The notes beneath the pieces are model-generated. The model searched no databases and was not told the DNA's origin. It worked only from the letters and a program-made list of their open reading frames with translations. Below are positions 50,761-54,695 of a stretch of DNA of 64,000 nt, one piece after another. Position numbers and translations under genes: made by a program. Positions within the stretch are counted from its first letter, which is position 1. Each line of letters begins with the position of its first letter. Where the stretch lies: positions 792,603 to 856,602 of the forward strand of contig AP017647.1 in the NCBI GenBank assembly GCA_003584625.1, given 5' to 3'. Origin of the DNA: Methanothermobacter sp. MT-2. Lineage in GTDB: Archaea; Methanobacteriota; Methanobacteria; Methanobacteriales; DSM-23052.

Positions 50761-51576
50761 TTAAGTTAACCAATTTTCAACCCTTTTCATGATCTTATCA
50801 AAGAAATCTAATGATTTTTCATGTGAACTAAGGGCTATTGCCAATTCTATGAGGGTCTTTTCATCTCCTACAAGGTTTATGTAAAGAAGAAGATTCTCAT
50901 ATAATTTACTGGTTTGATATCTTTCAGGCGCCTTTAAACCCCATAAGTGTATGAGGGCCCATTCTTTGGATGAATCTTTGATCTTTGAAAGTTGGAATTT
51001 CCTATTTGAAAATATCCTCTCTTGGATATATTTTAAAAGGTTTCTGTTTTTCAAAGCCCAGAAACTGAAATCCTCATACTTGGCTCTTAAATCATGGATT
51101 CGACCTCTTTTCTCTTCTCGTATCCTTATAAATTCTTCCTCATACTTATTAAGTTGAAATTTTGACCTGTCAGTCCCCACAAGCTTTAATAGATTACCGT
51201 GCCTCTTTTTCAGTTCTTTACCGGCTTCTATGTGGAGTATCTCATCATCTGTAAGTTTTCTCTTTTCTAAAAGTTCCTTTTGGGATTCGACTTCACCCCT
51301 CCATTCCTCACATTTCCTTGATTCAAGCTCTTTCACCTTTTCAGAGAATCTTCCCTTTAGAAGTTCCATTGTTAAAAACCTACGCCAATTATTCTCTCCC
51401 AGATAAGATAGTATGGCTGCTATCTCTAAAGGATCTTCTGGTTCGCCTCTAAAATATGATACAAATCGGGCGGTCTCCCTGGGGAACAAACTTGGGATTA
51501 TCATGACCAAAAGCCAAAATATAATTGAAACGGAAAGGGAAACTATTAATGGTAAAATGATTTCCTGGATAATCAT
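50761..51576 (-). CDS. Membrane-anchored helical partner of the AAA ATPase
   Basis: An N-terminal helix (residues 6-30) is followed by 240 charged, helix-forming residues with coiled-coil content (KVKELESRKCEEWRGEVESQKELLEKRKL). No domain is recognised. ATG 51576 overlaps the stop of the AAA ATPase gene by four bases, so the two proteins are very likely partners. It ends nine bases after the end of the DtxR gene on the other strand. Confidence 0.7.
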   Translation of the reverse strand: MIIQEIILPLIVSLSVSIIFWLLVMIIPSLFPRETARFVSYFRGEPEDPLEIAAILSYLGENNWRRFLTMELLKGRFSEKVKELESRKCEEWRGEVESQKELLEKRKLTDDEILHIEAGKELKKRHGNLLKLVGTDRSKFQLNKYEEEFIRIREEKRGRIHDLRAKYEDFSFWALKNRNLLKYIQERIFSNRKFQLSKIKDSSKEWALIHLWGLKAPERYQTSKLYENLLLYINLVGDEKTLIELAIALSSHEKSLDFFDKIMKRVENWLT

Positions 51577-53132
51577 GAGGACGCCCCTGTACTAAGGATA
51601 ATTTTCCGGAGCTCCCTTTTAGTCTCTGTTATAATATCTATCTTTTCAACATCCACACTATTATTATTAAGGTATTCTATTAACTGTGTGGGGGTTATTG
51701 TAGCCTCAAAATCTGCGAGTATTGAATCGCCTTCAAAGCCCACCCCAACAGCTCCATAAGCCAACAATAACCTTTTAGCCTCCTTAAGTTGTGGAGTTTT
51801 TATCCTGAAAGTACGCAACTGCTCATGCAATTCTGCTATGTCAATATTCATACGTTGAAGGTTTATGAGAACATGCTTATTCAAGGCCTCTTCTAGTATT
51901 TCAACATCTATTTTATCTTTTCCACGGTTTATCCTCACGGCCTGGGCTATCTGGGCAAGGTCCTTGGCATGTGCAAATGTTGGGTTTAATCCTTCACCAC
52001 CCTTGTCTTTGGGAGTGTAGAGTAATCTGAATCTTTCAAAGACGTCTTCTTCGTATTCTTCACCTATCAGATCTAGGTTTCTCCTGAATACTTCAATGAT
52101 CTCATCTATGGGTGGGGCTTGGAGGAATATGTGTAAAGGTGCTCTTCGTAGGTGGGCTTCATCCATTATACTTATGTCAAGGTTTGTGGAGAATACTGGG
52201 ATGAAGTGTGCATGTATAGCTACTGGCACACCCTTGATATATACCATCTCCTTCCTGTTTTCTAGGGGTATTATAAGACGGTTTAGTAGCATGTTATGAT
52301 CTTCTTTTTGCCTTCCAAGATCATCAAGTAGTAGGACGCCACCATTTGCTTTTATGATTGGTGATGTCTCATATACTCCCTTGTTTTTGTTGAAGTTTGT
52401 CTCCAGTTTTCTAATTGTAAGTTCAGATCCTGTGAATACAAAGGGTGCATATACTTTAACCCATCTTGGGTCTTCTGGTTGTTCCCTGGATAGTCTGTGA
52501 AAATCCGGATCATATAATTGGATTACCTGTTCATTAAATTCGATATAACGTGGGATTAAAAGTGGGGGGAGCAGGTTTGACAATTTACTTGTGATGAAGG
52601 TTTTACCCGTGCCTGGAGGACCATATATAAAAAAGCCTTTGCCGATTGTAGCCGCATTCACTAGGATCTCTTTAGCTTTTTCGCTGCCAACAACATCCTC
52701 AAAGGCTTTCTCGATGATCTTATCAGGTATCTTGATAGGGAATCTTCCTTCCAGTTGTTTCTCCATCACCTTAAAATATAATTCGTATCTTACAGGGGCC
52801 AGTCCAATGTAGGGGTTTTCTTTTAGGAGTTTTTCCGCAAGTTTTCTTCCCTTCATTTTTATAGCATATGTCACACTGGGGAATAGGAAGCCTCCTCCTA
52901 TGGAAGCGCAGAGTTCATCGTCTTCCATGTGCCGTAGGCATTCTTCAAGTATGTTCACATGTAATCCTGTGATTTCATGCATGTCTTTAACTTTTATAGT
53001 CCCATAGGTGGCTATGATTTTGAGGATAAGATCTTCTATAAATTTTCGGGAAAGATCTATTTCATCGAGGCTCTTTGGCCGTTTTAAGGCTTCGAAGAAT
53101 CTTTGCATTTTTTCATCATGGTAATAATCCAA
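51573..53132 (-). CDS. AAA ATPase with N-terminal winged helix, unknown pathway
   Basis: The protein (519 residues from TTG 53132 after GGTG; TTG 53144 is the longer choice) has a winged-helix-like start (ATYGTIKVKDMHEITGLHVNILEECLRHM), Walker A FIYGPPGTGKTFITSKL, a Walker B LLLDDLGR, the sensor PVFSTNLD and LRRAP with a candidate arginine finger. It is MoxR/dynein-type in style. Its translation is coupled to a one-helix membrane protein. Related ATPases in pilus and secretion loci make a membrane-remodelling job possible, but no other such genes are here. Confidence 0.8.
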   Translation of the reverse strand: MDYYHDEKMQRFFEALKRPKSLDEIDLSRKFIEDLILKIIATYGTIKVKDMHEITGLHVNILEECLRHMEDDELCASIGGGFLFPSVTYAIKMKGRKLAEKLLKENPYIGLAPVRYELYFKVMEKQLEGRFPIKIPDKIIEKAFEDVVGSEKAKEILVNAATIGKGFFIYGPPGTGKTFITSKLSNLLPPLLIPRYIEFNEQVIQLYDPDFHRLSREQPEDPRWVKVYAPFVFTGSELTIRKLETNFNKNKGVYETSPIIKANGGVLLLDDLGRQKEDHNMLLNRLIIPLENRKEMVYIKGVPVAIHAHFIPVFSTNLDISIMDEAHLRRAPLHIFLQAPPIDEIIEVFRRNLDLIGEEYEEDVFERFRLLYTPKDKGGEGLNPTFAHAKDLAQIAQAVRINRGKDKIDVEILEEALNKHVLINLQRMNIDIAELHEQLRTFRIKTPQLKEAKRLLLAYGAVGVGFEGDSILADFEATITPTQLIEYLNNNSVDVEKIDIITETKRELRKIILSTGASS

Positions 53133-54032: not shown

Positions 54033-54695
54033 TTAGATGAATGCGTCTAGGCTACTCTGCCTTTCACCACTCGCTAGGATTAGCAGATCATCTGTTGAGT
54101 ATCCGAGGGAGGTCATTATACGGGATACGGCAGCTAGAACTTGATTTTCTATATAGTAATCTGGGTCGTATTCTCCTTTGAAATCTTCAACTGGCACTGC
54201 CCGTTGACTGATGGGTTCTCTGCCCTTCACTATAATGTAGCGTATGATTGATCCTCTTTCAATTCTCCTACCCTTCATAAGGGATCTTCTAGCTGCTATT
54301 ATATGGGGGCCTATTTGTTTGTATTCATCAAGGTTCTTGGTGATCTGTGTGTGTATGATGAGATCCTCAACCTTCACATTACCTTTTTTGATATCATTTA
54401 TAACTTTTTTTATAATGTTCTTGGCCTTTTTGGGGGATCCGTCCTTTAGTATGGCTTTAAGGACCATCTGCTGTGTTTTTTTGGCTATGGGCGCCCAGTC
54501 CCTCCTTACAAGTTCCAGGCCCTTGGCGATGATAGTATCATCTTCTATTAGGGCGTATCTTTTCTTGGTTACGAAGAAACCTCTCTGGTAGAAGCCCTCA
54601 TATTCGAGTTCCATCCCCTTTGGGAGTTTGTTATTGATATAATCCAAGAATTTTTCAACCTGGGAGAGTATCTCCTTTTTCAGGTTCTCAGCCAA
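54033..54695 (-). CDS. polB2: DNA polymerase B, separate C-terminal subunit
   Basis: The 220-residue protein matches the thumb end of archaeal family B polymerases: [25 protein letters not shown] (the KKRYA motif), [32 protein letters not shown] and [18 protein letters not shown]. The exonuclease, palm and fingers are absent because the polymerase is split, as established in Methanothermobacter. The end QSSLDAFI is a PCNA-binding PIP-like box. The start is TTG 54695. Ribosomal S8e is upstream by 11 bases. Confidence 0.93.

Follow-up and report, generated by a model that had tools for sequence, protein, structure and literature searches.

A membrane-partnered AAA ATPase of thermophilic Methanobacteria as a probable accessory factor of Tad/Epd-like type IV pili

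An archaeal gene pair encoding an AAA ATPase and a charged one-helix partner raises a simple question: which cellular machine does the ATPase serve? The two genes lie on the minus strand (ATPase, 51573-53132; partner, 50761-51576) of a 64,000-nucleotide stretch of DNA, here called the window, which comes from a closed archaeal genome of 1.52 Mb on one contig. The ATPase gene was delimited by its ORF, dN/dS, and a family alignment. Its longest ORF runs from 53144 to 51573 and encodes 523 aa from a TTG start; a second TTG at 53132, which is in frame and has GGTG ahead of it, fits the family start M-DYYHDE and gives 519 aa. ORF calls and this in-frame TTG bear out the gene coordinates given by an earlier, sequence-only reading of the locus. 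The four-base overlap that it described is exact, with ATGA at 51573-51576 (minus strand) forming the stop/start junction of ATPase and partner as read from the ORFs and the sequence, and the identical overlap is present in four other genomes (G001, G002, G003, and G018). Because dN/dS relative to three congeners is low for both frames (0.141 to 0.150 for the ATPase and 0.115 to 0.150 for the partner), both are real genes under purifying selection. The proposed coupling of the two into one unit is likewise supported.

Upstream of the pair, the same strand encodes ribosomal protein S8e, the C-terminal part of a DNA polymerase B, and a HAD hydrolase. The polymerase fragment is a stand-alone gene (window positions 54033-54695), as in a split polymerase, and precedes those for the HAD hydrolase and the ATPase. 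Within the window, the pair has no neighbours with a role in pili, secretion, or known defence systems, as had been claimed. The pair had also been called an orphan system beside a metal regulator. A DtxR-type regulator does adjoin it, ending 8 bases away, but it is convergent, on the other strand, and therefore outside the two-gene unit; the pair is also not an orphan, since homologues of the ATPase occur in pilus clusters (see below). Sigma-70 and terminator scans, which are ill suited to archaeal promoters, gave values close to the shuffle means.

The ATPase had been judged probably active from its LLLDDLGR Walker B motif and a candidate arginine finger, and conservation of the key residues across the family agrees with that judgment. 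The active-site alignment comprised ten archaeal and five bacterial rows (15 in total), with residues numbered along the 523-aa ORF and all features on the minus strand. In the Walker A motif GPPGTGKT (residues 175-182; 52599-52622), G175, G178, G180, K181, and T182 are invariant in 15/15 rows, as are D274, D275, G277, R278, and Q279 of the Walker B motif LLLDDLGRQ (residues 271-279; 52308-52334). The same holds for F318, S319, and N321 of a sensor-1-like FSTN (residues 318-321; 52182-52193), for both R333 and R334 of the candidate arginine finger (52143-52148), and for the pair N288-R289. The second Walker B acid, which is E in the usual AAA proteins, is D in this family (DD type). By sequence, the active site is intact and is conserved from archaea to bacteria.

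The winged helix corresponds to a weak Pfam HTH_45 match (E 0.0011) in one relative, and Pfam recovered only the P-loop region of the window ATPase itself (Mg_chelatase, E 1.8e-10). By family alignment and Pfam, a C-terminal extra domain (about residues 440-523; 51573-51827, minus strand) belongs to the long archaeal form of the protein only; neither the bacterial rows nor the short archaeal form have it, and it weakly resembles DrrA1-3_C (3 of 11 members, best E 0.0082). This domain is single in the window and tandemly duplicated, in proteins of 587-596 aa, in three congeners (L049, L050, and L051, from G001, G002, and G003). PDB searches with the single sequence and with a profile returned mainly P-loop regions of other AAA proteins, and an AlphaFold2 model of the ATPase with two relatives (mean pLDDT 39.7) was too poor for use. 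Four named families were rejected: ComM/YifB (35 bits versus a TIGR00368 curated cutoff of 362 bits), MoxR with a vWA partner (16 bits versus 27 for Pfam bpMoxR, the adjacent partner having no vWA match), the antiphage ATPase IetA (a P-loop match only, the partner having no PADLOC or protease match), and the pilus motor T2SSE (PF00437, no match to the window ATPase).

A tblastn search with the short-form protein as the query matched 78 plasmid records, the best E values being about 1e-38, query coverage reaching 94%, and identity lying near 30%; the bacterial sample consisted of proteobacterial plasmid records only. At all ten bacterial loci examined, which represent seven genera, the homologue lies inside or directly beside a Tad/Flp cluster identified by CpaF, TadB/TadC, a prepilin peptidase, or CpaB. 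Seven of these loci carried annotation, and three were read via ORFs or tblastn (Photobacterium, Pseudorhodobacter, and S. fredii). The bacterial members align with the archaeal ones through the N-terminal domain and AAA core, along about 430 residues. The ATPase gene of rhizobial Tad loci is followed by one (L082:10316-10879; equivalents in L122, L123, and L125) whose product, about 187 aa long, likewise has a single helix; it parallels the archaeal partner in architecture but has no detectable homology to it. Phage records yielded two tblastn matches, both from Salmonella, ComM-like, and limited to the P-loop region.

Among archaea, the ATPase is present in 21 of 151 genomes of the phylum Methanobacteriota (19 of the 91 of good quality) and in 19 of 396 relatives searched, three of these being of one genus outside the phylum that we take to be Methanopyrus; the genome sets used here (60, 150, 151, 395, and 396) overlap, and the tallies are not independent. 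Four of the five Methanopyrus-class genomes carry the gene, and the fifth, which is 89% complete, gave no match. In Methanopyrus, the ATPase, T2SSE, two T2SSF genes, a class III pilin, a 332-aa protein, and a prepilin peptidase follow one another in one direction. T2SSE lies directly downstream of the ATPase in 4/4 ATPase-bearing genomes, one contig ending just inside it, and the T2SSE proteins of the window genome and Methanopyrus show 61% identity across 404 aa. With homologues placed in Tad loci (10/10 of the bacterial loci examined) and in a pilus operon (4/4 of the ATPase-bearing Methanopyrus genomes), the earlier assignment to an unknown pathway no longer stands: outside Methanobacteria, homologues are found consistently within a characterised apparatus, the very observation that the sequence-only reading had named as refuting it. 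At the level of the ATPase family, the link to pili is well supported.

Does this link extend to Methanobacteria? T2SSF and class III pilins are each encoded in 91/91 good-quality genomes of the phylum, and the window genome has T2SSE, two T2SSF genes, and class III pilins. Given that a matching motor, platform, and pilins are encoded, the likely client machine is present. The ATPase gene of the window genome is nevertheless 102 kb from the nearest T2SSF, and in G010, G014, G016, and G018, compared by coordinates on one contig, the distance is more than 100 kb. Moreover, 72 of the 91 good-quality genomes have no ATPase gene, so the pilus does not need it. Considering this separation and the many genomes lacking the gene, the ATPase would tune the pilus instead of building it, as an accessory factor: most Methanobacteria have pilus genes without it. 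As we delimit a Tad/Epd-like pilus accessory AAA family, the window protein aligns with it through the N-terminal domain and the full AAA core, shares its DDxGRQ Walker B, NR, FSxN, and RR residues (invariant in 15/15), and comes from a genome with the corresponding pilus genes. A pilus-cluster location, which typifies the family although homology does not require it, is seen in bacteria and Methanopyrus and not in the window or other Methanobacteria; we therefore class the window gene as a homologue with an inferred function.

Two archaeal forms of the ATPase can be distinguished. The long form (about 520-600 aa) adjoins the S8e, polymerase-fragment, and HAD genes, while the short form (about 442 aa) adjoins purA and occurs in Methanothermobacter-type and deep Methanobacteriaceae genomes; the window genus has the long form only. 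In a maximum-likelihood tree of 428 columns, the window-genus ATPase groups with the short-form clade (support 100). The core of the window ATPase thus clusters with short forms, yet the gene has the location, and the protein the C-terminal domain, of a long form. Gene conversion would account for this mismatch, as would a tandem duplication followed by differential loss. In the one-contig genome G010 (L054:8880-11263), the long-form ATPase has one frame change and its partner has two frame changes and a stop, although the short paralogue is intact there. The joint breakage of both long-form genes is consistent with a joint unit.

The partner is a 271-aa protein (50761-51576, minus strand; defined by ORF, hydropathy, and dN/dS) with a predicted N-terminal membrane helix at about residues 6-24 (51505-51561, minus strand; Kyte-Doolittle maximum of 2.74 at residue 6). 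Its one strongly hydrophobic segment and many charges match the earlier description of a single-helix, charged protein. Twelve genomes, from two families, have it next to the ATPase: 4 of the window genus and 8 of the Methanothermobacter-type genus, G010 with its two broken genes being among the 12. At mapped loci with readable downstream sequence, it is not adjacent to the ATPase in Methanothermus (G060, presumably Methanothermus fervidus), Methanopyrus, or f3 (deep Methanobacteriaceae). On contig C80 of G149 (L130:2814-10478), a distant homologue of the partner (303 aa, 26% identity) occurs alone, the ATPase being absent, as the last gene after the type I restriction-modification genes hsdR, hsdM, and hsdS and a 454-aa gene. 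Since this homologue is solo and several ATPase loci have no partner, the partner family can exist without the ATPase, and the partner is a clade-specific companion that was added recently. For the same reasons, the earlier notion of a fixed complex was too strong. Partner matches at E values of 0.002 to 0.4 in other genomes, one of them within a 465-aa ORF (G014, L131), were taken as chance. A partner profile found nothing in the PDB below an E value of 0.057, and an AlphaFold2 model of the partner alone (mean pLDDT 44.8) was too poor for use.

Taken together, core-wide homology to genes of Tad clusters and of the Methanopyrus operon, the conserved active site, and the matching pilus genes in the genome suggest that the ATPase, an N-terminal winged helix joined to an AAA+ domain, is probably an accessory factor of the Tad or archaeal Epd-like (clade 1) type IV pilus machine. 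That it acts on the pilus in the window organism we likewise consider somewhat more likely than not. Its exact step is a guess, which we offer tentatively. The ATPase may form a ring that spends ATP to assemble, load, or remodel a component of the pilus base, the likeliest client being the CpaF/PilB-type motor or its platform. In the window clade, the overlapping one-helix partner would hold this ring at the membrane.

A different history, in which the ATPase was once a pilus factor and was recruited in Methanobacteria, through the new partner, to another membrane task such as envelope upkeep or secretion of another surface fibre, strikes us as unlikely. The distance of the gene from pilus loci in Methanobacteria and the presence of the partner beside it in two families only both speak for such a recruitment, as does the distribution of fimbrin (mth60 homologue): of 150 genomes, 14 encode it, and each of these also has the ATPase. 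The fimbrin pattern, however, tracks family membership in 12 of the 14, the other two matches being in f3 genomes and one of these matches weak, and fimbrin is missing from 7 of 21 ATPase genomes. Mth60-type fimbrin genes are found at L143:1309-1839 (the mth60 region) and G000:C1:288053-288577, and their co-occurrence with the ATPase is likely phylogenetic. According to the main text of PMC10370314, Mth60 fibres assemble by themselves and differ from type IV pili; we set them aside as the client on this ground and because their pattern follows phylogeny.

It is very unlikely that the ATPase is a replication or DNA-handling factor. The conserved order of S8e, polymerase B fragment, HAD hydrolase, and ATPase would suit that role, as would the winged helix and a DD Walker B resembling that of DnaC-type loaders, and PHROG 3277 matches at an E value of 6.4e-5, in the P-loop only. 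Against this, the short paralogue adjoins purA, the Methanopyrus gene and the ten bacterial loci adjoin pilus genes, and the partner is a membrane protein. A role of the pair in defence or conflict is highly improbable: the distant partner homologue lies near hsdR, hsdM, and hsdS in G149 and IetA models match the ATPase weakly, but the resemblance to IetA is confined to the P-loop region (residues 141-200), the pair keeps its position among housekeeping genes, and we found no relatives of either protein in the viral contig set and none of the partner in plasmid records.

Our best reading remains that Tad and archaeal Epd-like pili have a third ATPase, apparently without a name so far, which a lineage-specific partner would tether to the membrane. 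A broader scenario seems to us slightly less probable than its opposite: besides the motor and TadZ/FleN, archaeal Epd-like and bacterial Tad pili would share this overlooked ATPase, which probably passed from archaea to bacteria with the machine and which, in thermophilic Methanobacteria, moved off the pilus operon, was duplicated, and became a membrane-tethered two-gene module tuning pilus assembly. The main text of Denise et al. 2019 (PMC6668835) derives Tad from an Epd-like archaeal pilus and gives the second ATPase as TadZ (Tad) or FlaH (Epd); that of Makarova et al. 2016 (PMC4858521) assigns the motors of Methanobacteria and of Methanopyrus to a single clade 1 system and mentions MoxR/GvpN ATPases elsewhere. 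We did not find the present ATPase named in the main texts of these two papers or of PMC10934763, PMC8513845, PMC8460266, and PMC10370314. More widely, a search of open-access main texts yielded no description of it in Tad or archaeal pilus loci, which is not proof of absence. The analysis thus offers a testable job for a conserved gene pair of thermophilic methanogens, an accessory ATPase that is not among the Tad and archaeal pilus parts listed in those main texts, and a possible extra shared component in support of an archaeal origin of bacterial Tad pili. Because a gene-deletion system exists for M. thermautotrophicus (main text of PMC10370314), the pilus idea is directly testable; G016 is strain Delta-H or a very near strain, as two published primers for the fimbria genes of that strain match it exactly.

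Comparison with known systems places the ATPase as follows. ComM/YifB and Mg-chelatase-like AAA proteins resemble it in the Walker A region (residues 141-204), but the rest of the core is unmatched and it falls far below the curated cutoffs of TIGR00368 and PRK09862. The short paralogue beside purA in Methanothermobacter-type genomes shows 71-73% identity over about residues 4-432 and lacks both the C-terminal domain and the partner. Methanopyrus ATPases (L109, L110, L111, and L149) share 44% identity over 507 residues, C-terminal domain included, but are encoded by the first gene of the operon with no partner before T2SSE, and they have an acidic C-terminal tail. The bacterial Tad AAA ATPases (for example, WP_011428170.1 of Rhizobium etli p42e and WP_258285372.1 of Burkholderia pyrrocinia) have the same active-site residues and the DDxGRQ, NR, and RR motifs; they show 23-28% identity, lack the C-terminal extra domain, and are encoded within the pilus cluster. 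TadZ/FleN and the CpaF/PilB ATPases of Tad and clade 1 pili belong to the same apparatus but to other P-loop families, and the bacterial clusters have distinct genes for CpaF and for a second ATPase annotated as AAA.
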